This document shows, one piece after another, positions 21,250-48,462 of a DNA stretch of 64,000 bases. The first letter of the stretch is position 1. Each line of letters begins with the position of its first letter. The position numbers and the translations under genes were made by a program. The notes under the pieces are model-generated. The model did no database searches and was not told where the DNA came from. It worked only from the letters and a program-made list of their open reading frames with translations. The DNA lies in the NCBI GenBank assembly GCA_023055425.1, contig JALGPY010000006.1:76320435-76384434 (forward strand), in the 5' to 3' direction. Source of the stretch: Linanthus parryae (lineage: Eukaryota > Streptophyta > Magnoliopsida > Ericales > Polemoniaceae).

Positions 21250-21388
21250 CCCCGTAACGGTTCCGGTATTCGCGCACCACGTGCTCTAACGGTCCCTATA
21301 TACTCGGACGAACGTGCCGTTATGGTTAAGCTAATTAAGCCGCCATCAATGGGCGCATTAACCACACTACAACGGTCACGTTCTCCAG

Positions 21389-21397
21389 TATATATAG
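21389..21397 (+). promoter_or_regulatory. Predicted TATA box of the Tat element
   Basis: TATATATAG in the context CCAGTATATATAGATCG, about 190 bases from the LTR end, which puts the start of the genomic RNA near 21425. A weaker alternative is CTATATAC at 21296. Confidence 0.55.
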
Positions 21398-21591
21398 ATC
21401 GTCAACCTTTCCATACAAAGGAGAACACACTTACCATACGCGGAAGCTCTGCCAAACCTCTGTCTCTCTCTCAGACATTGCTACTGACTTACTCTCTCCC
21501 TACACACAACCCCACTCTTCCTGTGCGATCCTTGATCCACTACACACGGTGCACACGGAGGTCTCCCCGCCGGAATCTCTTGTGCACATTT

Positions 21592-21610
21592 TGGTGAACC
21601 CGACGTGAAC
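21592..21610 (+). other. Primer binding site region of the Tat element
   Basis: Three to four bases after the LTR the sequence reads TGGTGAACCCGACGTGAAC, the position and TGG start of a tRNA primer site. I cannot name the tRNA with certainty. Confidence 0.6.
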
Positions 21611-21628
21611 TTACCAACAAAAGCAACC

Positions 21629-23533
21629 ATGTCTCAGGAGGATGATGTCAGTAACCGATCGCCTTCCACCGAAACTCCCTCGGGAGACGAGACCCGCCGT
21701 ACTCCAACGACCCCCGGCGAGGCACCGACGTTGGAGTCTTTGGATGCCACTGTCCAAAGTCAGGCGAAAGCTCTCAAGGCTCAATCTGCGCAATTGGAAC
21801 AAATCTTGGCCGTTCTGGGTACCCTTGCGCCAAATCCTCCACCAGCCACCGCTATCCCTCAGGGAGGAGGAACCCCTACCGCTCCAGGATTGGGAGTGTC
21901 AGCCACACCTCCCAACCCTCATCTGCAGACTCCACCGTCGGCTACGCAGCTCCCTTCGGTTCAAAGATCAACGGCACAGATGCTGCCTCCTGCTGCTCAC
22001 GCTCCTCAGCCGTCGGCTTTGGCGTCCAACCCAACTCTGCAGTACCCTTTGCCTCCCCCAACGATGATCTGGGGAAATGCGGGTAGTCAATATGCTCCCA
22101 ATCCTCCGGCGGCGTATGTGTCACCACCACCTACGGCAACCCCTCCGTCAACCACCGAGGGGAGCATTCCAGAATGCATGACGTCTTTGCAGAAACGCGT
22201 GGACACTATCCTGGCTCATCAGTCATTCGCGGATACCATTATCCCGAAGTTAGACAACGATCCGCCCATTCCACGAGAGATCTATCTCATGCCTAACCCC
22301 GCAGGGTACAAGGCTCCTAAATGGGATAAGTTCGAGGATGTCAACGGAAACGCTCACGAGCATGTCATGCGTTTCATTGATGTCATGGGTCCATACGGAG
22401 CTGATCCTAAACTGCTGATGCGAGAATTCCCAAAATCTCTTGGGAACGTAGCATACAAATGGTACCGAACATTGGAGGCCGGATCCGTGAAGACTTGGGA
22501 CGACATGGTCCAGAAGTTCTATACCAAGTTCTTCCAGATGGAAGAAAAGGTTACGATGATCCATCTCTCGCGGATGTACCAGAAGCGCGAAGAGGACGGA
22601 ATCACCTTCATCAAGAAATTCAGGGCGAAATCCTTGGAGTGCAAAGATCCAATGCCCGAAAGCCGTCTCGTAGAGATATGCCTGCAATGCATGCGAGATG
22701 AATACAAAGGTATGCTCATCAATCTGCAAACACCTACGTTTTCGAAGCTAATCGAATGCACGAAGAACATCGAGCCCATAGTCGAGAGACAGAAAAAGAA
22801 GAGCGCTCCAGAGCGACCTGCGAGTCCACCTACAAGATCGGAAGGTTTAGCTACAAGCGGGGACGCGAAGCTGAGGTCAATACAGTTTCGCCCCAGAAAC
22901 AAGCGAAGGTTGCGAACTTCGATGTACCGCCTCTGCCATGCTCGGTAGAGGAAGCAAGTGACCTCTGCAAACAGTGGCGCAAGGACGGCGTCCTGCCACC
23001 GCTCGAGAAAACACCCTCCAAGGAGATGGTGAGGGACCCTAAATGGTGTGAGTACCACGGAAAGGTCATGCATCCCACCGCCGAGTGCAAGAAACTCAGG
23101 TTCACGTTCGACCAGAAGATGAAGAACGGCGAGCTCATCGTCAGCGACCACCGGAAGGACGTGCGCAACAACCCGCTTCCCGCGCATGCGGAATCGGGCT
23201 CAAAAGGCAAAGAGGTCGCTATGATCTCGATCGTCGACTTGGAAGAAGTCGCAGAGGATGGCCTGCCCATCGTCGCCGAGGTCCATGAAGACGAAGACTA
23301 TAGCATGGACACAGAGGATGAATGTGCCGACCGCATGAAAGGGTCGCATGGCTTCAACAAATTCTTCGATGAAATGAATTTCTCCGACAAGTGCCGGACT
23401 GATATGACAAAAGCGATTTTGAGAATAGCAGAGGACTACGAGGAGGACCTTGTAGTCTCCAATGGGAAAGTCATCAGGGCATCCCGCTCTATGGAAAAGA
23501 TTATGACCTTTTCTCCCAGCGACAAAAAGACGG
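21629..23533 (+). pseudogene. Tat gag with two compensating frameshifts
   Basis: Gag builds the particle. The ATG at 21629 is chosen because upstream codons in this frame belong to the primer site. The first 200 residues are Pro/Thr/Ser-rich; a Retrotrans_gag domain follows (around 22290-22560, ending KTWDDMVQKFYTKFF). At about 22873 the sensible frame moves by one base, probably a lost C in AAGC(C)TGAG, and continues with the zinc-knuckle-like CEYHGKVMHPTAEC and an acidic region. Near 23530 it shifts back, where an extra base in AAAAAGACGGATG joins the protease. The two changes cancel, so they are either fresh lesions, sequence errors, or, less likely, programmed shifts. Confidence 0.8.
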
Positions 23534-24235
23534 ATGCGAGTCACCAGAGACCTGTACGTGACCGCCATCATCAATGGCGTCGAGTTCAAACGAGCGTTCG
23601 TCGATGGAGGAGCAGCGGTCAACGTCGTTCCGCTCCACACACTGAGGCTAGCAGGGATCCCCGAACATAAGGTAGTCAGACGTCCATCTCCGCTGGTGGG
23701 ATTCGGAAGCGACTCTAGAATGACAATCGGATGGATCCGCCTGGGCGTTCAGATTGGCAAAATCAAGTGCTCAGCAAAGTTCTATGTCATAGACGCGAAC
23801 ACCACATACCACATGATTGTAGGTCGAGCCTGGATTCATCGCTTCGACGCAGTCCCTTCGACGGCTCACCAGGTTATGAAAGCCATCTGGAACGACAGAA
23901 TAGTCGAGATACCGGCTTCAACAAACCCGTTCAACTTGGACGAAGCACATCTCAGTGAGGCGGTGTGGTTCACTGAAATGGCAGATGAGCAAACACCCGG
24001 ACCATTCAACCCTACTCCTTTGCCTCTCTGGGAGAACATCAAGGACCAATCGCCTGCAGGGGTAATGGTGACGAGGGAAGATGACAAGGAGAAGCCGCCT
24101 ACACGCGAAGAGGCGCCGCGTATCGCATATCATCGGAAGAACGTGTACACTCTGAAGAGGATCGCAAAGCATGACCCCGAGGGCAAGGAGATAGAGAGCT
24201 TCTACGCCAATGGGAAGAAATGCTACCGCATATGA
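23534..24235 (+). CDS. Tat aspartic protease domain
   Basis: The protease cleaves the polyprotein. The catalytic loop is AFVDGGAAVNVVP with Asp at residue 24 of this stretch, the D-G-G-A/S form usual in Tat-type elements. A flap-like region and MIVGRAWIH follow. The stretch starts at an ATG that is internal to the ancestral gag-pro frame; true translation would come from gag. It ends at a TGA (24233-24235) in the same frame as the RT ORF 12 bases downstream, so pro and RT are separated by this single stop. Confidence 0.82.
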   Translation: MRVTRDLYVTAIINGVEFKRAFVDGGAAVNVVPLHTLRLAGIPEHKVVRRPSPLVGFGSDSRMTIGWIRLGVQIGKIKCSAKFYVIDANTTYHMIVGRAWIHRFDAVPSTAHQVMKAIWNDRIVEIPASTNPFNLDEAHLSEAVWFTEMADEQTPGPFNPTPLPLWENIKDQSPAGVMVTREDDKEKPPTREEAPRIAYHRKNVYTLKRIAKHDPEGKEIESFYANGKKCYRI

Positions 24236-24247
24236 AGGTGCGCGGGG

Positions 24248-27200
24248 ATGTCCTCACGCGGGCATGGGGATGTCCCTGGGCAAATCAACCAAATCGAGCA
24301 AATTGCGCTGACAGAAGAGCCAACACAAGGCACTCCAGACGAGAAACTCAAAGAAGCTCCTGAATGCATGGAAGACAGGCCAAGACCGCAAAAGCAAGAG
24401 CTAAAGGAAGTGTTCCTCAGCTCGAACGAGGAAAAGAAAAGGCCAGTCTTCCTGAGCGCGGATCTCACAAGCGAAGAAGAACAAGGGCTGCTACAGCTCC
24501 TAACTGAATACAAGGATGTGTTCGCATGGGAGTATGACGAAATGCCAGGTCTGGATACAAGCATCACCATGCACCGTTTAGACATCATCCCCGGGTCTAA
24601 ACCGGTCAAGCAGAGCACGAGGAGCTTCAGGCCGGAGCTTAACGTCAAGATCAAGCAGGAGATTGTCAAACTCCTAGATGCCAAGTTCATAGAGCCGAAT
24701 CATCATCCCACATGGCTGGCCAACATCGTGCCAGTGGTGAAGAAGAACGGACAGCTCCGCATCTGCGTGGACTTCCGAGATCTCAACCGCTTCTGCCCTA
24801 AGGACGATTTCCCACTGCCCAACATCGATTTGCTCATCGACTCAACAGCAGGCCATCGCATGTTCAGTTTCATGGACGGTTTCAGCGGGTACAATCAAAT
24901 CAAGATGGATCCCGAAGACGCGCGCAAAACGGCGTTCATCACTCCTGTAGGGGTATTCAATTACACGGTGATGCCGTTCGGCCTTAAGAACGCTGGCGCG
25001 ACCTATCAGCGAGCCATGATGGCTCTATTTCACGACATGATGCACAAAGAGGTGGAGTTCTACGTGGATGACCTGGTGGTTAAATCCAAGCACGAAGCAG
25101 ACCACCTCGCAGACCTGCGAAAGGTGTTCAATAGATGCAGGCGCTTTCAACTGAAGATGAACCCCATGAAATGCGCGTTCGGGGTAACATCAGGGAAATT
25201 CTTGGGATGTGTGGTTCATCGCCAAGGGATAGAGCCCGACCCTGCGAAAGTATCGGCCATAACTGGCATGACGCCGCCCCACGATCAGAGTGCATTAAAG
25301 ACATTTTTAGGAAAGCTATCCTATCTGCGGAGATTCATCCCAGCAATTGCCGAAATCACATGCTGTTTCAGCACTCTTCTCAAAAAGGACGCCGCGTACA
25401 ACTGGGCTCCGGAGCATGAAACCGCATTCGAAAAGCTGAAGGATTTGCTTACGTCCTCAAAGATAATGATCGCGCCTCAACTGGGATCACCGCTCCTGCT
25501 ATACCTGAAATCTACAAGGAGATCTATAGGAGCGCTCTTGGCTCAAGAGTATGAAGGCCAAGAGAGGCCTATCTACTACATCACCCGCATCGTGCAGCCT
25601 GCTGACTCGAGGTACACAGACATCGAACGTCATTGCCTTGCCTTATTCTTTTTGATAGAAAAGTTGAAGCATTATTTTGCATCACACAAAGTAGTAGTGG
25701 TCACCAAGAGCGACCCCATAAGATACTTGCTAACTCACACTACTCCGGGAGGAAGACTGGCGAAATGGTACATGACCATTTCCCAATACGATATCACATG
25801 TGTGCGACCACGAGCGATCAAGTCGCAAGCGGTGGCAGATCTGTTGGCACAGTTCCCCGATAACAGCCATGAGCCCGTGATCGAAGAAGAGCTCGAAGGC
25901 CCTGAGATCTACGCAATCAATGTGCCCTATTGGACTCTCCACTTCGACGGTTCGTCGACCCGGAAAGGCGGAGGCATTGGGATAGTCTTGACAAAGCCAG
26001 ATGGGGAAGTCATACAGATGTCCGCAAAGCTCAACTTCGCAGTCACAAACAACGAAGCGGAATACGAGGCTCTCATTGTGGGGCTCCGTGCGGCGAAATC
26101 TTTGGAAGTAAGCAACTTGACAGTCATGGGAGATTCCAAGCTGATTGTTAAGCAAGCCTCGGGCGAATATGGTTTGAAGGAGATCAACCTCCTGTCTTAT
26201 CGCACCGCAGTACAGAAGCTGATGCAACAATTCTGCGATGTAAAGTACGAGCACAAGCCCCGAGCAGACAACAGGCACGCAGACGCCTTAGCAACTCTGG
26301 GGTCTAAGGTCAGCATAGACAAGTGCCCCGCAAGGATTTCCATCGAAGTGCGAACATCGTCGGCATTGACAGAAGATGCGTGCGACGACGAACACATGGA
26401 TGACGCAGACTGGCGAAAACCAATCTTGCAAGCTATTGCGAAGGGCACCAGCAACGAAAGCTGGGCACTCACAAAAGGATACTGCATCCACGACAACACC
26501 CTTTACTACAAGGGTCCTGGGGGAATACTCATGCGATGTGTCTCCGAGCAAGAGGGACAACAGCTGTTAGAAAAGATTCACCAACACGCTTGCGGAGAAA
26601 GCGAGGTGTCAATCTACAGAAAGGCTCAGAGATATGGCATTCATTGGCCAGGCATGTCGACAGCTGCAGCCCTGATACAAGGGAAGTGCGAAAGTTGCGC
26701 ACTAATCAAAGATTCTCTACTCGTCGCCTTAATCGATGACGACACGGACTGGAGGAAGCCACTGTTCGATTTCCTCACCCAGGGCACCGTGCCCGAATCG
26801 AGAAAGGAAGCCGAAAAATTAAAAAGGAAAGCGTCTCGATATGTGGTACAGGAAAACCTACTTTGGCGAAGAGGCCACGAGGGCAACTTGCTGCGATGTC
26901 TAGACGACAGAGAAGCACAAGAAGTCATGGACCTTTCTCATCAGGTGGAACATCAAGGAGGTGCGAAATTATGCAGACAGCTCCTCTCAATTGGATATTT
27001 ATGGCCCACGATGGAGGTCGATTGCCGTACCAAAGTGCGACGCTGCCAGGAATGCCAATTCAAAGGGAACCTAGTGCACGCTCCTGCTGTGGATCTACAT
27101 GCACTAGGGACGCCATGGCCATTTCACACATGGGCTCTGGACTTCATCGGTCCCATCCGACCGACGTCGCACGGGAATCATTTCATTCTCACCGCAACTG

Positions 27201-27973
27201 AGCTGTTCACCAAGTGGGTGGAAGCAATACCACTAAAGACGGCAAATGCGCTGGCTGTGGTCAACTTTATCCAAGAAAACATCGTATGCAGGTTCGGAAT
27301 CCCAAACACCATTCTTTCAGATAACGGTACTCCTTTTGTTAATCGCCAGGTAGCTGCGATATTAGCGGAGTACAATATCAGGCAGATATGTTCTACCCCT
27401 TATTACCCAAAGGGAAACGGACAAGCCGAAGCGACTAACAAGACGCTGTTGAGAATATTCAGCAAAATGGTCGCAGATGACCACAAGAAATGGGCCGACT
27501 CTCTAAGCATAGCTCTGTGGGCCTACAGAACTTCTCCAAGGACATCCACAGGGGCCTCGCCATTTCTACTATGTTATGGGGCCGAAGCTGTAGTACCTGC
27601 GGAGGTTAGAGTCAATTCGGCGAGGCTGGCCTTCCATGCACTCTATGAAAATCAACGCGATCATGACTTAGTATTGCTGGAAGAAAAGCGAGAACAAGCC
27701 AAAAGGACTAACAAGCGGTACCAGGAAAGAATCGCTCGCGCTTACAACAAGACAGTCCAGCGAAGGGATTTCGCAGTCGGAGACTTGGTCTTGCGCGCAT
27801 CTGACCACTGTATGCGAGAAGCAACTCACCCAAAGTTCGCAGCTAATTGGGAAGGACCCTTCGAAGTCACAGAAGTCTTCGATAGTGGCTACTGCAGCAT
27901 ACGAAGGTTGCACGGCACAACCTCAACTCCGAGTTCAGTCAACATGCGCTGGATCAAGAAGTACTATCCCTGA
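24248..27973 (+). CDS. Tat pol: RT, RNase H, archaeal-type RNase H, integrase
   Basis: An unbroken 1241-codon frame. RT spans roughly residues 150-320, with RICVDFRDLNRFCPKDDFPL and the YVDD box at residues 272-275. The native RNase H (about 410-520) lacks its first Asp (LLLYLKSTRRSIGALL), the norm in Tat. A second, archaeal-type RNase H starts near 564 and keeps D567 (HFDGSS), NNEAEYEAL, MGDSK and HADALA, so it looks active. Two integrase N-terminal-like modules follow (about 715-825 and 828-940). The integrase core carries D965, D1025 and E1061, the D-D-35-E triad. There is no chromodomain. The ATG is internal to the polyprotein, separated from the protease only by a TGA at 24233-24235. Confidence 0.93.
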   Translation: MSSRGHGDVPGQINQIEQIALTEEPTQGTPDEKLKEAPECMEDRPRPQKQELKEVFLSSNEEKKRPVFLSADLTSEEEQGLLQLLTEYKDVFAWEYDEMPGLDTSITMHRLDIIPGSKPVKQSTRSFRPELNVKIKQEIVKLLDAKFIEPNHHPTWLANIVPVVKKNGQLRICVDFRDLNRFCPKDDFPLPNIDLLIDSTAGHRMFSFMDGFSGYNQIKMDPEDARKTAFITPVGVFNYTVMPFGLKNAGATYQRAMMALFHDMMHKEVEFYVDDLVVKSKHEADHLADLRKVFNRCRRFQLKMNPMKCAFGVTSGKFLGCVVHRQGIEPDPAKVSAITGMTPPHDQSALKTFLGKLSYLRRFIPAIAEITCCFSTLLKKDAAYNWAPEHETAFEKLKDLLTSSKIMIAPQLGSPLLLYLKSTRRSIGALLAQEYEGQERPIYYITRIVQPADSRYTDIERHCLALFFLIEKLKHYFASHKVVVVTKSDPIRYLLTHTTPGGRLAKWYMTISQYDITCVRPRAIKSQAVADLLAQFPDNSHEPVIEEELEGPEIYAINVPYWTLHFDGSSTRKGGGIGIVLTKPDGEVIQMSAKLNFAVTNNEAEYEALIVGLRAAKSLEVSNLTVMGDSKLIVKQASGEYGLKEINLLSYRTAVQKLMQQFCDVKYEHKPRADNRHADALATLGSKVSIDKCPARISIEVRTSSALTEDACDDEHMDDADWRKPILQAIAKGTSNESWALTKGYCIHDNTLYYKGPGGILMRCVSEQEGQQLLEKIHQHACGESEVSIYRKAQRYGIHWPGMSTAAALIQGKCESCALIKDSLLVALIDDDTDWRKPLFDFLTQGTVPESRKEAEKLKRKASRYVVQENLLWRRGHEGNLLRCLDDREAQEVMDLSHQVEHQGGAKLCRQLLSIGYLWPTMEVDCRTKVRRCQECQFKGNLVHAPAVDLHALGTPWPFHTWALDFIGPIRPTSHGNHFILTATELFTKWVEAIPLKTANALAVVNFIQENIVCRFGIPNTILSDNGTPFVNRQVAAILAEYNIRQICSTPYYPKGNGQAEATNKTLLRIFSKMVADDHKKWADSLSIALWAYRTSPRTSTGASPFLLCYGAEAVVPAEVRVNSARLAFHALYENQRDHDLVLLEEKREQAKRTNKRYQERIARAYNKTVQRRDFAVGDLVLRASDHCMREATHPKFAANWEGPFEVTEVFDSGYCSIRRLHGTTSTPSSVNMRWIKKYYP

Positions 27974-28043
27974 CTTCTCTCATTTCATACGTTCTATGAT
28001 AACGTTGTTTAATGTCTCATGTGGCTACGATTTACGCAATCTC

Positions 28044-28122
28044 CTCTCCCATATGAGAGGATTGTAATCTCATCTCTCCCATATGAGAGCGTTGTAATAA
28101 AAGAATTCTCCCAAATGAGAAG
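28044..28122. repeat. Short repeated palindromes with AATAAA after pol
   Basis: CTCTCCCATATGAGAG occurs at 28044 and 28074, each followed by a TTGTAAT block, and a third variant (CTCCCAAATGAGAAG) begins at 28108. The unit CTCCCATATGAGAG is nearly self-complementary. AATAAA lies at 28096-28101. It could mark RNA 3'-end formation downstream of pol, but this is an inference. Confidence 0.5.
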
Positions 28123-28201
28123 TTCACACTTCTAGCTGTTTATGTTGCTCTATTCAGTTTATTATTACTTTTAACAATGGTTTATTCGCCGCAATAGCAA
28201 T

Positions 28202-29180
28202 CAATGCAAATGCGATCTTAAGTGATCATCTAAGCCTATCTCTTACGATAGCAGCCAATGCAATGCGATCTTAAGTGATCATCTAAGCCTATCTCTCACG
28301 ATAGCAGCCAATGCAATGCGATCTTAAGTGCTCATCTAAGCCTATCTCTCACGATAGCAGCCAATGCAAATGCGATCTTAAGTGATCATCTAAGCCTATC
28401 TCTCACGATAGCAGCCAATGCAAATGCGATCTTAAGTGATCATCTAAGCCTATCTCTCACGATAGCAGCCAATGCAAATGCGATCTTAAGTGATCATCTA
28501 AGCCTATCTCTCACGATAGCAGCCAATGCAATGCGATCTTAAGTGATCATCTAAGCCTATCTCTCACGATAGCAGCCAATGCAAATGCGATATTAAGTGA
28601 TCATCTAAGCCTATCTCTTACGATAGCAGCCAATGCAATGCGATCTTAAGTGATCATCTAAGCCTATCTCTCAGGATAGCAGCCAGTGCAAATGCGATCT
28701 TAAGTGATCATCTAAGCCTATCTCTTACGATAGCAGCCAATGCAATGTGATCTTAATTGATCATATAAGCCTATCTCTTACGATAGCAGCCTGTCTAAAT
28801 GCGATCTTAATTGATCACCCAAGCCTATCTGCTACGATAGCAACTTATATGCAAAGTGATTTTAGTTAATCATCTAATCCTATCTGTTACGATAGCAACT
28901 TATATGCAAAGCGATTTTACTTGATCGCTCAAGCCTATCTGTTACGATGGCAACGCATGCGCAAAATGATCTTATTAGATCTTCTAAGAGTATCTGTTGT
29001 GATAGCAGTTTATGTGAGAAATGATCTCAATCGATTCTCTAATAAAGCCTATCTGTCATGATAGCAATTCGCACCACTTAACGATCTTAATTGATCTGCC
29101 AAAGACTATCTACTACGATAGCAACGTTGTGAAAATGATCTTAAATGATCCGCAATGGTCAACCGACAAGCCCATCTGCC
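28202..29180. repeat. 53/54-bp tandem array between pol and the antisense gene
   Basis: About twelve near-identical units at 28202-28790 and about seven increasingly diverged ones to about 29180. Units differ mainly by one A (CAATGCAATGCG, 53 bp, or CAATGCAAATGCG, 54 bp). Each holds GATCTTAAGTGATC and a small inverted repeat CTATC-N6-GATAG. Divergence rises toward the antisense gene, indicating recent homogenisation of the pol-proximal side. Arrays in this position are common in large Tat and Ogre-type elements. Confidence 0.9.
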
Positions 29181-30582
29181 GGGATGGCACAGCTGCGAAG
29201 ATACGATCTCGAATGATCTAGCGAAACACCCGCGAATCAATATATCGCAGATGCGAAACAATTACATAGCATTATGCAAGGCGAAGTATGCCGAAACGCA
29301 TGCGAAATTGTATTTTGTTGTAAAGAAACAGCAGATGATACAGAAAGCTATTTATCATTACGAGTCAAATGACTTACAATTTATCTGTCTAGATAGCAGC
29401 TTACAAGCAAAAAGCTCGAATCTAACTACGCAGCCAACATGGCCTACAATACATTCGAAAAATGGCCGACAAGCCAGAAACACACTACGGGAATTCCGAT
29501 TAGAAAAGGATGAACCCACCGGTATCAACACCGGCTACGCAACGCCCAGATCTGCGGGTGAACATCTGTAGCAGGGGGGATCTTGCTCTAAAAGAGCCAC
29601 ATGAAGCCATACGCTCAAGATTCCGGTATCCGACAAGACCGTTGTCAGATATGCATCCCATAACATTTGCCCAAGGAACCACCGGTTCCGGCGATCCACA
29701 GGCAAGCAGAAGCTCCAAAGGGCAAGGGCTCCTTGTAGACGGGGATGAACGCGACGGTTCGTCACCCCGAGCTCACAAACATGAAGGTGACGGATTCTTC
29801 TCCGGAGATGCTGAAGAAGAATTCCGCCGTTCATTACGAGACGGTAGCACGGTCACTGCGGCGCTGCACCTCAACACGAGGCGGCCGGAAACATGACCTG
29901 CACACATAATACACGAAGAAATTTCTTCGAACACACATGAGATATTATCTGCATCTTCTTTATGATGGTTATAAAGAGCAATAAGCCTCATAAAGTGGAT
30001 CTTGGAAACTATTTCTATAGCACAAAGCGCAAACTCAGGATTCAAAACTTGAAGTTGCCATGAATCAACGAAAAACAAGCGTTGAAGCCAGTAGTCGTAA
30101 GGACTCACGGCAAAGCACATGTTTGGGATGAAGAACCCAAATAGAAAAGACAGGGTTTATATAGACCCTATACAGACTCTTCGGCTGCCTAAGATGAGTC
30201 AGCAAAATTCAAAAAGAGGGTAAGTTCAATCACTTACGCCTTGAAAAGCGGTAACAATCAATTACCCTACTAAAGGCTACGACGATTCAGTTGCGTATCC
30301 TAATAAATGACGGATAGTCATGATTCGGATGGACTTCCCAACGGAAGCGTGCTTATCTGCCGAGAAATTAGCGCGAAAATCAAGCAGATAATCAATTGCT
30401 GATGTCATAATTGGATATGCACAGAAATATCCAATCAGATCCCGGAAAAGGGCAAAACGGGAAAATTCATTGTTTTTGTTAAAAAAAGGGGGAGAAACCC
30501 TAGCAGCATTACATTAATGTTCAAGACATTACATTAATGTTCCGGCTATTTTTCGCGCTATTTTTGTGCAAAATTCGAAAAA
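29181..30582. other. Spacer of the Tat element
   Basis: Non-coding as far as I can see, apart from a doubtful antisense ORF at 29773-30120. Overlapping open stretches on both strands at 29500-29900 reflect GC-rich sequence rather than a clear gene. Confidence 0.45.
29773..30120 (-). CDS. Doubtful 115-codon antisense ORF
   Basis: An ATG at 30120 opens 115 codons on the minus strand, beginning MCFAVSPYDYWLQRL. A TATA-like TCTATATAAACC lies on the same strand at 30153-30165, about 35-45 bases upstream. No domain is recognised. It could be the first exon of a small antisense transcript or chance; the TATA motif is nearly symmetrical and could face either way. Confidence 0.3.
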   Translation of the reverse strand: MCFAVSPYDYWLQRLFFVDSWQLQVLNPEFALCAIEIVSKIHFMRLIALYNHHKEDADNISCVFEEISSCIMCAGHVSGRLVLRCSAAVTVLPSRNERRNSSSASPEKNPSPSCL

Positions 30583-33500
30583 TCAAAGCAAATTCTTGAT
30601 TAAGGAGTCTTGGGGCTCGAACTGCTCGCTCAGCTTCTCCACTTGTTTCACTTCTTGCTTCAGTAGCTCGCACCTAGCATTCATCTCATGATACAGCTTC
30701 AGAGCTTCATCAACCTTTTGCTTCTGCTGCTCCACCTTCTGCATCTCAGCTGCGAGATTCTGGTGACCGAGTTTCAAAGTTATGGCTGCGCGAATCAGCG
30801 TGACTCTGTCCTTGAGAAACTTGAAGCCCATTCTACCTTGGACTTTGGTCACGAGATTTTGGCACATGCCACATAGCAATTCAGCACTCTGGACCGAAAT
30901 GGTCGCAGGTGTAGCCGCAGACAGCTGCTCCAATATCCAAATGGCTTCAGTAAGGAACAGCCTCCTGTCAAAAGGCCCGATCTCCAGAGATCTCACAAAT
31001 GATCGGGGGTAGGTCAGACGCATTCGAACCACCCAGTCTACATCGGTTTGCTTCAAACCTGAGGAGACGTCAAAAAAAAGGTTATGATGTCAAAACTCGC
31101 AAGCGAATAATGCGACATGCGAACAGTAAAGCTCTACTTACCAGTTCCTTCCAGAATCTCATGAAGGGAAGGAATGCGGGCTGCCGGGTTGTTCGAAGAT
31201 TGTCCTCGCTCCATAGCCCTCCTATCAGCTGCGAGCTCCAATCTCTCGTAGTCGGGAGGAAGAGTGTAGGCCGCACCAGCTGCGACTGCATTCCCAGCCT
31301 GCGAGCCCCAAATGCTCCACGCAGGAATAGGTGCCTCGGGCTCAGTCGTCACCGGAGGCGAAGGGGCAGCCGAAGTCGCTTGGCGAAGGACGCTCTCAGA
31401 TGCGAGGACATCAGCAGCACTTGTCCTTCCCATCTCAGCACTAGCATGGACATCTTCACCCATCAGCACAGTGTCAGCTCCAGCATCGTCGGAAAGCTCG
31501 ATGATGTCCTCAAGAGGCTCACCCGTGTGGTCAGCAGCTGCGACGGGCTTCTCGGTATGGGAGCTCGGAACTGGAACATAGTACGCAGAGGGTTGACTTC
31601 TCTGCTCCAACTCTGGTTCTTCAGCATAACCTGCGACATTAAATGCGATGACATGAGGTAACTTGCGTTATAAGTTATTTTGCTATCTTTGCTAAAGCTA
31701 AGAGAAAGCACCTCCACGCGAAGGTGGGATTGAGGTATCCTCATCATACACTAAGGACGTGGAACCATGCCCTATCAGTGTGTCCTCACTAAGCAAGTCT
31801 TTAAGAGAAGCGTGACCTGGGATGCGAATAAACCAGTCATGATTCTGCCTTAAGTTGCTAAGAGCCTAGTACGTGCGAATCACTCAAATAGTTACCTGAG
31901 GGTTCTCCGCATTTGCCTACTAACCAACGGCGAATGTCAGCCTTTGACACACCATGCTTTAACGCACCCACAATAACATCTCTATAAGTCACTGCGAGAT
32001 TGAAGATCTCACCTTTATCGCCACCTGCGATCTCTTCGAAGTCTGCTTGGACTTGCTCCAAGGCCGCTGCATCCTCTCCGGGAACCTCATCTTCCTCTTC
32101 CACATGAGGAGCCACTTCTTCGGGAAGCTCGTCTTCCTCGCCAACTGGACGCACTAAGTCGTCAACATGCTGCTCTTCAAGGCTCCGCTGTTTCACACGC
32201 TCGAGCTCCTCTTCCTCTCGCCGCCTTCTTCTTTCAGCAGCCTCCGCGGCTGTCTTCCGGGACTCAGCAAGAACGTCCTCGCTTATGGGCTCATCTGGAA
32301 TGCCAGAATCGGCATCTCTCTTTTGTCTCTTGGCCACAAGGCCACCAATGGTTTCATCATCATCATCTGCGAATACCCAATTGGTTTAAAGAAAAGAAGT
32401 GCAAAGAAGTTACGATAAGGGGAAAGGAAATGCGACGGAGGTACCTCCTGATTCTTCCTCATGCATCACAACTGTTACTTCTTCTTCATCACTCGCTTGG
32501 GGCTCCTGCCTCTCTTCTTCTTCCTCTTGATTGAAAGGAACAAAGGTCTCAACTGCGAGATCTTTCCGCACTTTGCTGGGCATGCGACCTTTGCCTTTGT
32601 CCTTGATAGAAAGGGACCTCACTGGGGGAGAAGCTGGGGCATTCCTAGGGGAAGAAATCGTAATTCCCTTTTGCCTAGGTCTCTTCACTCTTGGCGCCGC
32701 CGTCGCTGGAGGAGACGGGTCATCTCCAGGAGGAGACGGAGCCGGAGGATTGTCTATCAGCGAGTCAGCAAAAGCATTCATGACCGCGCGAATCTTCATT
32801 TCGAGCTCAGGTTCCATCCTCCACGATAGCCGGAACGACTGCCCTTCTCTCCTGGTGGCAACGATGGCGTTGACCAATGACTTGGAGCGATCGCCAGCTG
32901 CGAATCGCCGCACATGACACTACAACCGTACAGAGTAAAGAGGTCAGCATAAGGAAATCAAGAAGCTTAATGCATGTGGAGAAACCGCTTACCTCCGCAA
33001 ATGCCTTGCTATATCTGGCGACATGCGTATCGCCCTTCTTAATTGCGGCAACTTGCTCCTTCAGAATGACATCAGGGCACAAATGATTCTCCCGATCCCA
33101 CAGTGAGTAACAACCATACTCAGACTCGCTCAGACTGCAAGTAGGGCGAAACGGAAAGGAGTTCCTTTTGATCAAGGGAGATCTACCTGGCTGCGCGGCC
33201 GACTCCGTCTCAATCCTCGTTTGCTGGGCAACCCAGTATGCGAGCCAGTTCTGGGAACAGCCACCCTCGCGGGTTCCCGCAGGCTGCTCAAAAGGAAGGT
33301 TGTTCATGAAAACCGTCTTGCACTCCTTTGTTAGCAAGCGCTTGTAGCATCCTCTGAAAATGGACTGGGGCCAGATTGATGGGGCCACTGCATCAAAACC
33401 AAACTGAGGAGAAACTCGAGTGGGGTCAACGTCCACGGTAAGCTTTTCGTACCTCGGCGCGAGCTCACGAATATGCTCTGCAAGGGCAGGAAGGGAACCT

Positions 33501-34873
33501 CGCAGACACCAGCAAAAGAACTCGCGATAGCGCTCATGAAAATGAGGTCCCCCTTCAAAGAGAAGCTCTTCTGAAAAGACCATGCCTTTAGAGGGGTACA
33601 GCTTTGGGAACCATCGCACGTTCTCAATGCGCTTGGCATAGGGCCTGGCAGTAAACTCCTTCCGTTTGTCGCATATCAAACTCCAAACGCACTTGGTGTT
33701 GCCTGTTCCGAACCATCTCGCAGCTCTTCCGCTGTTGCGCGCTTCTGTCTCGCCTGGGGGACACCACTTATCAAGTTGGAGAGCAGTTGGAGCATAAGAC
33801 GGCCAGCGCTCGAACACCCACATTGTCAAAAAGGAAATATTGACAAAAGTCAGTACATCGAGGCGGCCACGCGACTCCCTCATAGCCAGAACCAGCTGGT
33901 CAAGCCTATAGTACAGCGTGCCCAAGACCAAGGGTCCGAGTGCGACCCTCTGGCCAAGAGCGAGCCTCATAGCAAGTGGCAACACATGGTAGAAGACTCC
34001 GTCATGGGGGTGACCATTAATCAAGTACCTCGACAGCCAGGCACAGAGAAAAGCACAAAGGGTCAAGTGATAACCCTTACCCTCTACGTAATTCTCGGCC
34101 TCTGGATCCTCGCTCAGGAGTTTCTTAGTAATGCTGCTGTTCGCATAATCGCGAAAGAAGTACTGCAACCATTTGTTCCAGGTATTCTTCGCGGATGTAT
34201 CAACCAGCTGCCAGTTAGGAAGAGGCTTGGTAGTGGTCCACCGAGTGGAGATTTTCTTCACCTCTGCCAAGCATTCCTCCATCTGCGTGTACAAGGCAAT
34301 CTCCGCAGATGTCCTCAAGGGACTCAGAGGGTCCACCTCGCCCATGGGGGAAAGCTCGTACAGCATTTGAACGTCCTCGAGTGTGGGGGCAGCCTCGAAC
34401 TCAGCAAAATGGAACGTATGAGTCGCAGGCGAGTAACGGGATAGAAGGTCTAGAAGCATGGACTGATCCAACTTCACGGCAGCACCCTTCATAGCACGGA
34501 TAGCAAAGTATACGCCGGCTTCATTAAGAGTCTCGGCGTGATGATCCAACACGTGGTCGATCCACTCATCCATATAGTCCAATTTCTGGACGAACGCCTG
34601 AGTAGAAATCGCAGTATATGGGAAGTGCCCGTTCTCGATCCCCAATCGAACTACATCCTCGGAACCAACCAACTCGAGCAAGGCTGAGTTAACTGGGCGA
34701 GTCAGCGTCAGCAATCGCTCAACTGGAACAGGATCAGGCATCCTCTTCGCCTTTACCCTCGCATGGTAAAAATCTTTGCCGCCTAAAAAGGGGGATTTTC
34801 GCCACAAGGCCTGCGGAAGGTCGGGTATCTCTTCATCTTCCTTCACGGGTCTGGTTACTCTTGTCTTGGCCAT
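30583..34873 (-). CDS. Antisense six-exon gene for a plant mobile domain protein
   Basis: Exons on the minus strand: 34873-32993, 32919-32445, 32366-31896, 31816-31712, 31630-31142 and 31058-30583. The five introns are 73-83 nt with GT-AG ends, all junctions keep the frame, and coding length is 3897 nt, giving about 1298 residues plus stop. Exon 1 carries a plant mobile domain (PMD, the aminotransferase-like family of MAIN and MAIL1), recognised from PTLEDVQMLYELSPMG near residue 160, the LCAFLCAWLSRYL block and LPLAMRLALGQRVALGPLVL. The C-terminal half is Ser/Pro/Glu-rich with basic clusters (KRPRQKG, KRQKRD) and two coiled-coil-like segments (in exons 3 and 6). The ATG at 34873 (MAKTRVTRP) is preferred over an upstream in-frame start lacking support. 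Function in the element is unknown; nuclear location is an inference. Confidence 0.88.
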
Positions 34874-35548
34874 TCCTGTGGAAGAGCAAGAAAAAGGGGG
34901 GAGAAATACCACACTTCAGTTTGAATTTTGGAATTCAAGATCTATGCAAAGGAAGACGAACAGTTCCGGTATCGATTTCAGAAATTGGGGAGTTGGAAGA
35001 TCCAATATTGTTGAAAGATTAAAACGAAGCAGGTTCAAAGATCAAAGCCTCTTCACAAATTTCATGGGTTTACAGATTCAACGCAGTTCAAGGCAAACAC
35101 TGGTATCTTAAATCAAAAGTAAACGAGGCCAACCTTGTTTTCTTGAAGCCTGCTTGGATATGCACAATTGAAGAATACGATTTGCAGTTCTGAACTGGTG
35201 ATTGATTATCTGGATCTGCTCTCGAAGATCTCCGGGTACCATTCACTTTAAGAGAAAGAAGTGATGCTTTGCAATAATGGGGGATACAAGGTATTTATCC
35301 AAAACAATGAAGGGTTGCGCCCTTTCGATAGTCGAATCGCAACCGTCACCGTCGAATCGCGCAATCACAGGACAAGCTGACGTCACGCCTAAAACCCTAA
35401 GGGTCAGACGGCACGACTCTAGGGGTTTTAGGTCATAATGACACGCACGGGGGCTGAATCTACCCGTATTTAAATTGGTGCGTGGCGGAGACGCGTATGT
35501 TGGTTTCCGCGCATGGAAGTCTATACGGCTATGAGTCTTCACGCGCAG
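34874..35548 (-). promoter_or_regulatory. Putative promoter and leader of the antisense gene
   Basis: No ORF on either strand has recognisable content. The minus strand carries GGATAAATAC at 35291-35300, a TATA-like motif that would give a leader of about 390 nt before the ATG at 34873. This is the only evident region from which the antisense gene could be transcribed, unless the 3' LTR acts bidirectionally. Confidence 0.35.
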
Positions 35549-35560
35549 AAAGGGGGCTAA
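35549..35560 (+). other. Polypurine tract of the Tat element
   Basis: AGAAAGGGGGCTAA lies directly before the 3' LTR start at 35561; the purine run matches the position and composition of a polypurine tract. Confidence 0.8.
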
Positions 35561-36187
35561 TGTAGATACTGCTTTCTGACATGACAGATCTTGGCCACGT
35601 GGCAGCCATCCAGCACACCATATTGTGCTCCATACACACTGGATCACCAGCCGAGCTGATCCATGTGGGGGCTGCGAGACAGAGCCCTCGCATACCACTG
35701 CACGGGACTTGTAGGGACTTAGTGGTTTGGAGGCTAGAGTAAGCCCTGTCGCGTGCGAGCCAAGCCCGCACGCGACCTTTAGTAACTGTTTTGAGAGATT
35801 TATGGCACGAGCTCCATAAACCCGGTCAATCCGGTCAAACCCGGTCAACCCCGTAACGGTTCCGGTATTCGCGCACCACGTGCTCTAACGGTCCCTATAT
35901 ACTCGGACGAACGTGCCGTTATGGTTAAGCTAATTAAGCCGCCATCAATGGGCGCATTAACCACACTACAACGGTCACGTTCTCCAGTATATATAGATCG
36001 TCAACCTTTCCATACAAAGGAGAACACACTTACCATACGCGGAAGCTCTGCCAAACCTCTGTCTCTCTCTCAGACATTGCTACTGACTTACTCTCTCCCT
36101 ACACACAACCCCACTCTTCCTGTGCGATCCTTGATCCACTACACACGGTGCACACGGAGGTCTCCCCGCCGGAATCTCTTGTGCACA
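35561..36187 (+). repeat. 3' LTR of the Tat element
   Basis: 627 bp, indistinguishable by eye from 20962-21588, followed by the TSD ACAAT at 36188-36192. Confidence 0.95.
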
Positions 36188-36192
36188 ACAAT

Positions 36193-38782: not shown

Positions 38783-40023
38783 TGAAGGGGTGTACAGTAG
38801 GTAAAAATACATGATCAATACTCTAAAAAGGGTGGGGGGGGGGGGTTTGAATAGACTATGCCAACTTTTGCTAAACTTTCAAGAAGAGTGGTTTCAAAAA
38901 GATTCGTATTGTATTAAGCGTGTTTCAAGGCCTTGAAATGATTTTCAAGCCCTTGGAATGAAAACAATTGAAGTTTAAAAGATAAGTCTATTTCAAGGCC
39001 TTGAAATGAATTTCAAACCATTGAAATGAAACTGTTTTGAATGCTGCAAAAGATCTAAGTATGGAACTGAAAAGTAAATGCAAGAGACTCAAGATATATT
39101 GAGTTCAGCCTACTTGGACCTACATCTCTACCTCATGGATCTTCTCCCTGCAGGATTTTCAACATAATTCTTATTAATCCACATCTAAGTCCTAGATCTC
39201 AAGCATAGAGAGATGCCTTACTCTGTTATAGCTTGTGGTTCTCACTAACCTATCTAGTATCTGCTCTAGCTATCTGATTAACTAGGAATTCTCTATTGTT
39301 CACCTTGAACAATCCTTGAGAATGAAAACTAGAAGTATTAAAAAATATATACAAATGAAGTTCAGAAGAGAAGAACACTAGAGCTGAATCTGCAGTGAGT
39401 ATGCAGTGTTCATCTGTTGCTTGGGTTGAGAGAAAATGAATCTGCTTCTTGTTGCTTGACAATCCCTGAATGTGTTTGTGTGTCTCTTCTAATTTTCCCG
39501 TTGCAATGCTACAGCTTTCCTTCTTTTTCTAGATCAGTTTGAACTGAAGATCTTCAGGATCTTCTCTGTAACAAACTTCCCTATTTTGTAGCTTCAGCTT
39601 TGACTTATTTTATAGCTTCTCCAACGGATAGTTTGCCTAGTTTCTTCATTGATACTGATTTGATATTGTATAAAAATCTGTTAGGAAGCTTCCAAACACA
39701 TCAAAATGATCACAAAATCAAATCAACTCAGAATATTCTTTTGCTGCAAAAACTCAGGTTAGGAAATAGTTCTTGCAAAATAGGAAATAAAATTTCCCTG
39801 CAAAACTATGTCAAACAAATGGAATATATGCTATAAACGTGTCAGGATACTTAATATTTCATCATTAAGTATCAACTAATCAAGCACATGGTTTTAGGAG
39901 TTGAATCAAGATCAGAAACTCCCCCTAAGTTTATGCCGATAAGGCACAGTCAGTTTCAAGGCCTTAAAATAGACTAGCTATTTCAAGTCTTTGAAACTGA
40001 GTTGTAACTGAGTTGAACTTACA
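38783..40023 (-). repeat. 3' LTR of the copia element
   Basis: 1241 bp, homologous to 55844-57066 along its whole length. It contains a G homopolymer at 38833-38845 and several copies of the TTTCAAGGCCTTGAAA-type palindrome. Confidence 0.92.
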
Positions 40024-40038
40024 ATCTCCCCCTTGATG
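40024..40038 (-). other. Polypurine tract of the copia element
   Basis: On the minus strand CATCAAGGGGGAGAT abuts the TGTAAGTTCAAC start of the 3' LTR. Confidence 0.85.
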
Positions 40039-41076
40039 AAAGACAAAACCACAATCTGTTTCATACTATGTTTCTGCAAAAAATACTCATTAGTGTATAG
40101 AACAGTCAATTATAGCACATGATATCCAAAAGAAATCCAACTTATTAACTTACACAAAACATCAAAGTTTAGATAGTTCTACTGACCAAAAACCAGTTCA
40201 GATGTCCTAGTAAGCTGATAAATAAAAACCTAATTATTCTCCCCCTTTTTGGATTTCATCAAAAAAAAGAATGAGAAGATGTTGGATCAAATTTTTTGGA
40301 ATGATTTTTGAAATACTGTTTGAAAAGATAGAATTTTCAAGACTTTGAAAAGGATTTCAAGGCCTTGAAAAAGATAAGAAAGAGTAGGCAAGAGTTAAGG
40401 GTTTGGGTCATCATCTTCTTGCTGCTCTGCATCTTCTTCCTGACTATTTCCCTCATCGTCATCAGCTTGTTCTTCTTCCTGTTGAGCCACATCAACTTCC
40501 TGAATGATTGAGCTTATGGTCTTGATCACACTGTTAAACAGGAAGTTTAACCCTTATAATACCTTCCTTCCATGTTTCAGTTTCTTCTTTACAAAAGACA
40601 TTTTCTTTGTCAATGAAGAATTTTTCTTATGATTCATTCTTTCAGACTCCATGCTAGATTCTGGCTCAGCTTCTTGAAGTTCTTTCTTCTTTCTGTCTTC
40701 CTTGAAATTAAATAGATTTCATATGAACTTGAAGTTGCATTTGAATCCGAGTCTTGAATGTAGATCTCTCTTTTCATTTTACCTTGTATGCTATATCAGC
40801 CTTCTTCTTCACCTGCTTAGGGATACCAATCTTAATCCCTTTATGTTTTTCTTGAGCAGTCTCCACTGTCTTCTTCTTCTTGCTGGATACTGGTGTCTGA
40901 TCTTTCTTTGCCTTCTTAATAGGAGGAGGAAGTGCCATTCCTTCTGCTGTTGGAGTCTTTGAATTGGAATCCCCTTTGATGGTCTGAACCTCTTCCACAA
41001 TTGCCTTTCTTCTCTTCTCTGTGCTAGCCTTTCAACCACCAACCATCTTGATTCTGTCAGAGGCTCTTATAGTGCT
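40039..41076 (-). pseudogene. Degenerate Lys-rich third ORF downstream of copia pol
   Basis: On the minus strand an ORF can be followed from an ATG near 41076 (MSTIRASDRIKMVGG, then a stop) into a Lys-rich stretch at 41024-40774 with KKAKKDQTPVSSKKKK and PKQVKKKADIAYKVK. Below 40774 the frame is lost, though acidic Glu/Asp-rich text at 40390-40490 suggests a continuation. Its place between pol and the 3' LTR is that of the extra ORF of SIRE/Maximus-type elements. No membrane segment is visible, so an envelope role is not supported. Confidence 0.4.
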
Positions 41077-41521
41077 CATTAGGGTTTGGGGAGAAGAAGA
41101 GTGAGCTAGGATAGATACGAAGGAGAGAAAGAAAGAAGAAGATAAATAGAAAAGAGTTTTAGTTTGAAAAGGAAACTAAATATTCTTTCTAATCTTTTAA
41201 GATCTGCTGAATCAAAAAGATTCAAGTTTTGTGTGTGCCGTTGGAAATAAAAGATATAATACTATTTTGGCTGAAAAGAGGTATTTGAAAAATTAAGGGG
41301 CAAAATTGAGCAATTATCTACAAAGATAACACCCAACATTGAAAGATCCAAATTATTGTCTAACTAACATACAATCTTATTTTCAAGTCTTTGGAATGGA
41401 TTTCAAGGCCTTGAAAAGCTATATGGTTTTAAGCACATATACTCAAAGCTTTGAAAAGATTTTCAAGGCTTTGAAAATAAATTCAAACGTTTGAAACACA
41501 TAATACTTACCTGATTCTTCC

Positions 41522-43559
41522 CTAAACCAATGCTTCTTTATTTAGCATGCCCAATTCCAATCTTAAGGCTGAAAATCTTTCATCTGGCAATGGTTTAGTG
41601 AAGATATCTGTAAATTGAAAGTTAGTAGAAACAAATTCAAGAGCAATATCACCTTTTTCAGCAGGATCTCTTATGAAGTGATGTCTAACATTAATATGCT
41701 TTGTTCTTGAATGCTGAACTGGATTCTTTGTAATAGATATTGCACTTGCGTTGTCACACGGGATAGGTATATATATTTCTGAAATCAAATCCAAGCTTCT
41801 GTTGTTTCTTTGAATGCCAGCTGATTAAAGATGATCCAATAAATTGACAGCATCCTGATGTACTCTTTATATCAACTTTATATCCTGCAAAGTCAGCATC
41901 TGAATAGCCACACAAAGAGAAGTTAGATTGTTTAGGATACCAAAGCCCTAAGTCTTTGGTACCATTGAGATATATGGATATTCTCTTAACTACAGTCATG
42001 TGCGATTCTTTATGTTCAGCTTGAAATTCAAAACACATACAAACACTAAACATGATATTTGGTCTGCTAGCTGTGAGGTAGAGTAATGATCCAATCATAC
42101 CTCTATACTCTTTCACATTCACACTCTTACCAGATTCATCTTTCTCTAAAGATAATGTAGAACTCATGGGGGTCTTGATCTCTTTGGATTGAGACATATT
42201 ATACTTAATTAGAAAATCTCTTGTGTACTTGCTTTGATGTAGGAATATGCCTATCTTCATCTGATGAATTTGTAGTCCAAGAAAGAAGTTAAATTCTCCC
42301 ATCAAGCTCATTTCAAATTCCCTGCTCATAAGACTTGAGAATTCCTTGCACAGAAGATCATTAGTAGCTCCAAACAGAATATCATCAACATAAATTTGAA
42401 CTACAAGCATGTCTTTCTCATGAGTTTTTTATGAAAATGGTCTTATCTACTAATCCTATTTTGAAATTATTTTCCAGTAGAAATTTTGACAATCTTTCAT
42501 ACCAAGCCCTTGGAGCTTATTTCAAACCATAAAGAGCCTTGTCAAGTTTGTAAACATGATCTGGAAACTTGTCATTTTCAAAACCTGGAGGTTGAGCAAC
42601 ATAAACTTCTTCTTGCAGATAGCCATTTAAAAATGCACACTTCACATCCATTTGAAAGAGTTTTATATTCTTGTGAGATGCAAATGCAAGTAGAATTATA
42701 ATTTCTTCAACCTGGAAACAAGAGCAAATGTTTCTTCATAGTCAATACCTTCTTCTTGATTGTAGCCTTGAGCTACCAATCTTGCTTTGTTTCTGATTAC
42801 CTTTCCATTCTCATCTAACTTGTTTCTGAATACCCATTTGGTGTCAATGACATACTGATTTCTTGGTGGAGGAACTAGATTCCAAACCTTGTTCCTTTCA
42901 AACTCATTGAGTTCACTTTGCATAGCTATAATACAGTCTGCTTCTTGTAAAGCTTCCTTCACAATTTTAGGTTCTACAGGAGAGATAAAAGCATTAAAAG
43001 CACAAAGATTTTTCAACTGTGATCTGTTTTGTGTACCAGTGGTTGGATAAGAAATAATATTGTCAGCAGGATGAGATGAGAGAGATTTAAATCTCTTCCT
43101 TGGTGTCCAAGGTTCAGGATCTCCAATATGTTTTTTCAAGTCTCTGAGAACTTGAAGTAGTAGCTTGTTCCGCAGTCTTTTCTGGACATTCTGTTTCAAG
43201 GCTTTGAACCTTAGGCCTTGAAAATGCCTTCTTTGTTCCTGCAACACTTCCTTGAAACCTTTTGAGTATTCTTCTTCAGTGTCTGAATCATGCTTGTTTA
43301 TATTAAGATCTGCAAAACCGTCACTCAAAGAACCATCATAGCTTTCATCAAATATAACATGAATGCTTTCTTCAACAAGCTTTGTTCTCTTATTATAAAT
43401 TCTATAGGCTTTGCTTGTCTGTGAATAACCAAGAAAAACCTTAATCACTTCTTGCATCAAACTTACCAAGATTGTCCTTACCGTTATTGTGGACAAAACA
43501 AGTACAATCAAAAGGCTTGAAGTAAGAAATGTTTGGCTTTCCTCCTTTGAATAGCTCAT
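41522..43559 (-). pseudogene. Copia reverse transcriptase and RNase H
   Basis: The RT begins in the 43559-42696 stretch (NELNEFERNKVWNLVPPP-type start, then TKWVFRNKLDENGKV and [20 protein letters not shown]) and continues after a gap at 42695-42411 in 42410-41754, with YVDDILFGATN as the catalytic box and FFLGLQI. RNase H has GYSDADFAGYKVDIKSTSG and, in 41794-41522, PIPCDNASAISITKNPVQHS and DIFTKPL. Frameshifts near 42700-42410 and 41790 break it, the latter removing the segment between WHSKKQ and the final block. Confidence 0.88.
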
Positions 43560-44098
43560 AAGGGGTCTTCTTCAGAATATGTTTGATCAAGCACCTGTTA
43601 AGAATATAGTTTGTCGTATTCACAGCTTCGGCCCAATAATACTCTGGAAATTTGTTTTCCAGAAGCATTGTTCTTGACATGTCTTCAAGAGTCATGTTCT
43701 TTCTTTCAACAACTCCATTTTGTTGAGGAGTTCTAGGAGCAGAAAAGTTGTGAGAGATACCATGCATAGAACATAATACATCAAACTATAGTTTATCAAA
43801 ATCTCTACCATGATCACTTCTGATTGAAGCAATAGGTAGTTTTTTCAAGGTTTAAAGTTTCCTACAAAAGCTTTGAAAATTTAGTGAGAGCTTCTGATTT
43901 TTCTCTAAGAAACATAACCCAAGTATATCTAGAAAAATCATCTACAATAACAAGTATGTACTTCTTACCCTTTGGAGTTGGAGTTCTCATAGGACCACAG
44001 AGATCCATGTACAATAATTCAATGGGTCTAGTAGTACTTACGAAGTTCTTTGGTTTGAATGAGCTTCTAGCTTGCTTGCCTTGGCACATGCCTTGCAT
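43441..44098 (-). pseudogene. Copia integrase, broken
   Basis: The integrase core starts in 44098-43862 with RPIELLYMDLCGPMRTPT (first Asp) and ILVIVDDFSRYTWVMFL. A break at 43861-43768 removes the region of the second Asp. The segment 43767-43441 carries the Glu region (SAPRTPQQNGVVERKN) and YILNRCLI. The middle of the triad is therefore degraded. Confidence 0.85.
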
Positions 44099-48444: not shown

Positions 48445-48462
48445 AAATTGTATCCTCAAAAT

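Follow-up and report, generated by a model that had tools for sequence, protein, structure and literature searches.

Long terminal repeat (LTR) retrotransposons replicate via sense-strand genomic RNA, and an intron-bearing gene carried on that strand would tend to lose its introns. How, then, can a multi-exon gene persist within such an element, and what might it do there? Both questions are raised by a locus of Linanthus parryae (Polemoniaceae) within the 64,000-nucleotide stretch analysed here, referred to as the window (contig JALGPY010000006.1, positions 76,320,435 to 76,384,434 of the forward strand; C79:76320435-76384434 in our genome search). A Ty3/gypsy retrotransposon of the Tat type occupies window positions 20962-36187, and a predicted six-exon gene for a plant mobile domain (PMD) protein lies on its minus strand, between pol and the 3' LTR and beyond a tandem array, with 687 bp separating its ATG from the 3' LTR. 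The antisense layout explains how this gene can persist within a retrotransposon: on sense RNA its introns read CT...AC and cannot be spliced, so that they outlast reverse transcription, and expression of the gene requires a separate antisense transcript, the genomic RNA being sense. The extra gene is maintained by selection, with amino acids conserved at both ends of a protein encoded by six predicted exons.

The antisense gene and its conservation among family copies

The six minus-strand exons (34873-30583) are joined through GT-AG introns into 3,897 nt, or 1299 codons including the TGA stop. They are listed below in the direction of transcription together with the predicted signals around them; the fractions refer to the family copies described further on.

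35293-35299, minus strand: TATA-like GATAAAT 5' of the gene, in 30/30 copies; function predicted
34876-34877, minus strand: acceptor-like AG after a pyrimidine tract just 5' of the ATG, possibly of an intron in the 5' untranslated region; rank 13 of 444 AG sites, in 30/30 copies; function predicted
32993-34873, minus strand: exon 1, plant mobile domain
32920-32992, minus strand: intron 1, 73 nt; donor GT in 28/30 copies and GC in 2/30, AG in 30/30
32445-32919, minus strand: exon 2, charged linker (join model, codon usage)
32367-32444, minus strand: intron 2, 78 nt; GT in 30/30, AG in 25/30 as aligned, the other five having CAG once an aligner gap is resolved
31896-32366, minus strand: exon 3, acidic linker (join model, codon usage)
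31817-31895, minus strand: intron 3, 79 nt; GT in 29/30, AG in 29/30
31712-31816, minus strand: exon 4 (join model, codon usage)
31631-31711, minus strand: intron 4, 81 nt; GT in 29/30, AG in 27/30
31142-31630, minus strand: exon 5
31059-31141, minus strand: intron 5, 83 nt; GT in 20/21, AG in 20/21
30583-31058, minus strand: exon 6, C-terminal region, coiled-coil-like by eye, ending DSLIKNLL before the TGA
30466-30471, minus strand: AATGAA, possible poly(A) signal 3' of the stop, predicted

Rejoining the exons and a chance test confirmed what a preliminary description of the locus had claimed, namely six frame-preserving antisense exons with GT-AG introns and 1299 codons in a 15.2-kb element. 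The test used dynamic programming to find the longest spliced chain, allowing up to five GT-AG introns, each 65-95 nt long, with 60 first-order Markov simulations as the null. The longest chain on the gene strand had 1305 codons, six more than the model, as compared with 517 on the opposite strand and 190-497 in the simulations (mean 305, standard deviation 62, n=60). A chance open frame is thus ruled out, 1305 codons standing against a simulated maximum of 497. Under codon usage trained on exon 1, the predicted frame was the preferred one of six in all 5 remaining exons, and GC content was 37-43% in the introns and 49-58% in the exons. When splice sites were scored against a plant consensus, the predicted donors ranked 1, 3, 4, 19 and 28 among 328 GT sites and the predicted acceptors 7, 10, 16, 96 and 104 among 444 AG sites, so that two of the acceptors are unremarkable.

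The spliced protein matches PF10536, the PMD family, over residues 127-499 (93.8 bits versus a gathering score of 34.9, E=1.5e-26), and exon 1 by itself scores 96.5 bits, confirming the PMD signature earlier noted in exon 1. Basic stretches are present in the protein (KRPR, KRQK and RRRRR). A weak match to DUF7745 (residues 133-187, E=0.002, under the cut-off) falls within the PMD, and the two families may be related. Comparison of the exons with one another for signs of exon duplication gave weak matches only, the best being between the charged exons 2 and 3 (E=0.004). No relatives of the protein were found in a 5.8-billion protein set, viral contigs, prokaryote contigs or PDB sequences. An AlphaFold model of exon 1, made with no alignment, had a mean predicted local distance difference test score (pLDDT) of 35.8 and was not used.

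To see how the gene fares across its family, the genome (1,513,943,953 bases in 121 contigs) was searched with the exon-1 protein, and 70 of 17,318 candidates, ranked by exon-1 protein similarity, were scored. All 70 span the whole of exon 1 (residues 1-627) with 97-100% identity; in 62 the exon contains no stop. The first 30, our own copy included, were read with 1,500 bases on either side, and exons 5 and 6 were read for 20 of the 29 others; exons 2-6 played no part in choosing the copies. The ATG is retained in 30/30 copies, and each donor or acceptor dinucleotide of introns 1-4 is kept in 27-30 of the 30, counting the two GC donors of intron 1 and the five gap-resolved copies at acceptor 2. 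Through exons 5 and 6, 17 of the 20 other copies reach the same stop in frame, two meet an earlier stop and one is cut short. Intron 5 is 1-2 bases shorter than in our own copy in 18/20; exon 5 measures 489 nt in 18/20 and exon 6 measures 476 nt in 19/20, its end falling at the same stop in 19/20. Loss of the frame in family copies had been named beforehand as one result that would refute the gene, and it was not borne out: counting our own, 16 of the 21 copies have the six-exon gene intact, with 1296-1301 codons; the remaining five are disrupted by a stop codon, a frameshift, loss of a splice site or truncation.

The ratio of nonsynonymous to synonymous divergence (dN/dS), which had likewise been proposed as a check, was pooled over all pairs of copies, using 27 copies for exons 1-4 (L024, L033 and L039 of the 30 were dropped for a long deletion or truncation) and 20 rows for exons 5 and 6 (L060 of the 21, cut short, was dropped). 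It was 0.056 for exon 1 (bootstrap over copies 0.05-0.07), 0.241 for exons 2-4 (0.21-0.28), 0.357 for exon 5 and 0.099 for exon 6, versus 1.0-2.1 in exons 1-4 and 0.88-2.2 in exons 5 and 6 when same-strand shifted frames were used. Exon 1 has 627 codons: 352 without any change, 194 with silent changes only and 81 with an amino-acid change. Judged by these ratios, the PMD and the C-terminus are tightly constrained and the charged middle loosely. Most of the exon-1 columns with two letters (244/293) are C/T or A/G, the pattern expected from methylated cytosines.

Insertions and deletions (indels) were counted relative to our own copy in 28 other copies, leaving out L039, with correction by eye for four copies. 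Exons 1-4 have 14 indels, with raw lengths of 3 (five times), 6, 201, 211, 1 (twice) and 2 (four times); the four 2-base indels are 3-base losses that the aligner split across acceptor 2, so that 11 of the 14 are multiples of three. After the same correction introns 1-4 have 28 indels, 25 of them single-base. With copies intact, splice sites kept and dN/dS low, a decayed relic is ruled out.

The element and its surroundings

The features of the element, other than the antisense gene, are as follows.

20957-20961 (left) and 36188-36192 (right): target site duplication ACAAT, 5 bp, read from the flanks
20962-36187: LTR retrotransposon, Ty3/gypsy, Tat type, 15,226 bp (paired LTRs, target duplication, domain order)
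20962-21588, plus strand: 5' LTR, 627 bp, TGTAGA...GCACA, the same base for base as 35561-36187
21629-22948, plus strand: gag open frame (PF03732, E=4.5e-8), its ATG 41 bp 3' of the 5' LTR
22702-23670, plus strand: second open frame, in another frame, with CX2HX4HX4C seen by eye; presumed C-terminal part of gag
23507-24235, plus strand: aspartic protease frame with a TGA at its end (PF09668, E=3.1e-4, under the cut-off)
24236-27973, plus strand: pol with reverse transcriptase (RT), RNase H, a second RNase H (RVT_3) and integrase (Pfam profile matches)
28182-29230, plus strand: tandem array, unit about 54 bp, about 19 units (repeat analysis)
35561-36187, plus strand: 3' LTR, 627 bp

The paired LTRs, the target duplication, gag and the order RT, RNase H, integrase place the element in Ty3/gypsy, and the additional RNase H between RNase H and integrase places it in Tat, supporting the type named in the preliminary description. 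In pol, RVT_3 covers residues 570-687, after RT_RNaseH (to 518) and before Integrase_H2C2 (from 891); this order of RT, RNase H, RVT_3 RNase H and integrase is characteristic of the Ogre and Retand branches of Tat (PMC6317226). The two LTRs have TG...CA termini and show 0 differences over 627 bp, which bears out the earlier view of a young insertion. A scan of the frame at 22702-23670 with Pfam profiles gave no match, and a tRNA scan over the 64-kb window found none.

Before RT, the plus-strand gag-pol region (21589-24300) has two frame changes and an in-frame TGA, while the antisense gene of the same copy is intact. A run of five A lies inside each overlap of frames. These interruptions may be shared by the family, recoded, or due to an assembly error. 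In the tandem array the exact dyad CTATC-N6-GATAG recurs, all 15 of its occurrences in the window being inside the array; in the diverged part of the array the dyad columns, picked after inspection, keep 90% of the unit versus 67% elsewhere.

Other retroelement pieces are found in the window. Direct repeats at 46110-48428 and 53073-55386, about 6.95-6.96 kb apart and 95-99% alike, lie around gag, protease and integrase pieces of a second, broken Ty3/gypsy LTR element. Another pair of direct repeats (38841-39943 and 55890-56992; 17.05 kb apart, 86-92% alike) encloses Ty1/copia gag and RT pieces as well as the broken Ty3/gypsy element, and the whole arrangement at 38841-56992 probably represents nested insertions. 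On the minus strand, Ty3/gypsy pieces with integrase, SH3 and chromodomain, chromovirus-like, occur at 520-6183 with LTR-like repeats 5.22 kb apart (94-98%), and a piece of RVT_3-type RNase H at 63231-63746 (E=7.6e-10).

Possible role and origin of the gene

We propose a conserved antisense accessory gene of the element whose product, a nuclear PMD protein, would shield the element from host silencing, a proposal to which we give an even chance of being right. The predicted course is that: RNA polymerase II would start between the 3' LTR and the ATG, directed by the TATA-like site (35299); the host would splice the five short introns of the antisense transcript; the PMD protein would enter the nucleus, as suggested by its basic stretches and by analogy with the nuclear protein of Grande gene23; it would pair with, or compete for, host PMD partners through its PMD, as in a complex of the MAIN/MAIL1-PP7L type; it would join itself or other factors through its conserved C-terminal end; and silencing of the element family would be lowered as the outcome. 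In the host, MAIN and MAIL1 take part in silencing together with PP7L (PMC7156037, PMC9899485). Counter-silencing by a PMD has been put forward, as speculation only, for the PMD borne by MULEs (Ikeda 2017, PMC5418596).

The region upstream of the gene (34874-35560) diverges less among copies (0.022) than the LTR (0.032) or the introns (0.047), which would fit a promoter and leader that are in use, as a prediction only. A donor-like site occurs at 36033 on the minus strand, in the 3' LTR, with a score of 6.06 versus 6.22 for the best predicted donor of the gene; paired with the AG just 5' of the ATG, it might delimit a long leader intron.

Several points weigh against the proposal. The gene product is predicted from genomic sequence, and which way it would act on silencing is guesswork, since host PMD proteins promote silencing; the PMD protein of the element could interfere with them or could serve the element otherwise. 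Base pairing between an antisense mRNA of more than 4 kb and the genomic RNA would be expected and could itself promote silencing. One 60-bp upstream window (35047-34988) has a divergence of 0.062, equal to the most variable exon windows. Copies were ranked by exon-1 protein similarity, so that exon-1 dN is depressed and intact copies are enriched, although exons 2-6, which lay outside this selection, are constrained all the same; moreover, the pooled pairs of copies are not independent. Exon 1 is more diverged at synonymous sites (0.106) than the introns are (0.047), for which we have no explanation. One sense-strand frame of exon 1 also has a low dN/dS (0.144, the other two being 1.8 and 3.0), yet it contains 25 stops and its longest run is 78 codons; we take it to be the register that sets wobble position against wobble position.

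The conservation among copies fits equally well an accessory gene that helps the element to replicate, enter the nucleus or be transcribed, rather than one acting on silencing. We regard this as possible, though clearly less probable than a shield. A regulatory role is preferred by the author on Retand, who likens it to that of retroviral antisense genes (PMC11963269; PMC7264820), whereas Arabidopsis experiments link the PMD to silencing and transcription control (PMC5418596, PMC7156037, PMC9899485), and no sequence feature pointing to RNA export or packaging was seen in the gene. Alternatively, the antisense transcript might itself be the functional product, forming double-stranded RNA with the genomic RNA and limiting copy number, with the protein incidental. 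The predicted overlap of antisense and sense RNA exceeds 4 kb, a double-stranded RNA role has been proposed (PMC7264820), and PMD loci of tea yield phased small interfering RNAs (PMC10673657). However, a function of the RNA alone would be indifferent to codons, and it is strongly opposed by dN/dS of 0.06-0.36 in the right frame versus 0.88-2.2 in wrong frames, by the triplet indels and by the splice sites kept; we therefore consider it quite unlikely. Slightly less probable still is that only exon 1 with a read-through intron 1 is translated, exons 2-6 remaining unjoined. The unspliced frame from the ATG is indeed open for 688 codons, which would give a 688-residue PMD protein, but the low dN/dS of exon 6, the shared stop and the kept splice dinucleotides speak against this.

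A host-like gene bears on the last alternative and on the origin. The locus L015 (C57:122938283-122940313) comprises a 678-codon PMD frame followed, after about 400 bp, by a 263-codon frame ending SLAQSLL, with possible short exons in the gap; this layout is similar to that of the antisense gene, which ends DSLIKNLL. Among the 15 PMD loci compared, L015 is nearest to exon 1, with 31% identity to the antisense protein over residues 17-547; the C-terminal halves align weakly (score 52, reached by 3 of 300 shuffles). The 29.7 kb around L015 contain neither a pair of LTR-like repeats nor a match to the pol of this element. When the genome was searched with its PMD frame (66 of 13,223 candidates scored), L015 itself came back at 100% and a broken relative at 48%, followed by 65 rows at 29-37% dispersed across many contigs. 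L015 has the look of a host gene present in one copy, its closest relatives being PMD frames in many copies; it is a candidate domesticated or donor host gene. A host PMD gene could thus have been copied by chance and carried recently as a passenger without use, but the presence of the gene at no fewer than 70 places under purifying selection refutes a passenger both recent and unused, and we find this reading barely credible. Any capture must be old, given the 31% identity to L015; an old capture of a host gene followed by use is possible. Either a host gene with introns was captured by the element in reverse orientation, or elements of this kind gave rise to the host gene, the same question of origin that was left open for the whole PMD family by Ikeda 2017 (PMC5418596). 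Dense clusters of strong PMD matches, many above 300 bits and with many long open frames, were observed at C57:126.3-127.7 Mb and C46:154.9-155.9 Mb; they are of another PMD type than the antisense gene, and some members are identical (L007 = L008).

Comparison with known systems

The element mixes features of Retand and Ogre. With Retand it has in common the antisense coding region between pol and the 3' LTR, tandem repeats in that region and the LTR size (627 bp versus 315-1,194; PMC11963269), and both Ogre and Retand have, as here, a second RNase H between RNase H and integrase (PMC6317226). The distance from pol to the 3' LTR is 7,587 bp versus 2,933-6,566 in Retand, and the internal region 13,972 bp versus 7,380-12,869 (PMC11963269). 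Retand carries TRP28 in the antisense open reading frames (ORFs) of 97% of clusters (PMC11963269), whereas here a PMD and no TRP28 was found. TRP28 (PF04195) gave no match in the spliced protein, in exons 1, 2, 3, 5 and 6 singly, or in minus-strand stop-free pieces of at least 30 residues outside the gene from pol to the 3' LTR, plus-strand pieces being scanned in part; genome-wide there were 0 matches among 31 candidates, in a search whose positive controls also gave none.

The 41 bp between the 5' LTR and the gag ATG leave no room for a gene such as Ogre ORF1, which lies on the sense strand upstream of gag. Ogre is likewise a Tat element, and a PMD-bearing extra ORF is present in 57% of Ogre elements (PMC6317226); the PMD is shared, while the gene here is antisense, 3' of pol and intron-bearing. 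Maize Grande gene23 is an antisense accessory gene in a long 3' internal region, with its own promoter and a nuclear protein (PMC7264820). Its position and strand are as here, but the parts of that source concerning it mention no PMD (PMC7264820).

The nearest parallel for an element-encoded regulator may be VANC of VANDAL elements, whose proteins bind motifs that often lie within the tandem repeats of the element encoding them, and bring about a loss of methylation (Hosaka 2017, PMC5735166). An element-encoded product, an intron-bearing gene and noncoding tandem repeats in the same element are all three found here; VANDAL, in contrast, is a DNA transposon, the VANC domains are DUF1985 and DUF287, and binding and demethylation were demonstrated for VANC (PMC5735166), while the present gene is known from sequence. 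By this analogy, the PMD protein might bind the CTATC-N6-GATAG dyads of its own array and keep family copies open, as a PMD counterpart of VANC whose introns are protected by the antisense layout; we hold this to be doubtful, well below the alternatives of a shield or a non-silencing accessory gene, and take the VANC parallel as a lead only.

The first report of a PMD in Ty3/gypsy elements is said to be that of Steinbauerova 2011. PMDs in Ty3/gypsy (PMC5418596, PMC6317226) and antisense ORFs in Retand (PMC11963269) are already in print, and searches of the open-access literature, judged by title and abstract, turned up no account of an antisense PMD gene that is spliced and under purifying selection, or of a PMD in Retand or in antisense, though Steinbauerova 2011 may say more on orientation and introns. 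The Retand survey took ORFs of at least 600 bp, and its main text does not use the word intron, in contrast to the spliced gene described here (PMC11963269). Surveys of unbroken frames (at least 250 codons, PMC6317226; at least 600 bp, PMC11963269) would miss exons 2-6, and spliced antisense genes may therefore be commoner than thought. This bears on the function of extra ORFs in plant LTR retrotransposons, a question raised by Neumann 2019 (PMC6317226). MAIN and MAIL1 are PMD proteins like the antisense product, the difference being that the latter is part of a mobile element (PMC5418596, PMC7156037, PMC9899485); since host silencing factors carry the PMD too, a single named gene allows the idea of an arms race fought with PMDs to be tested.

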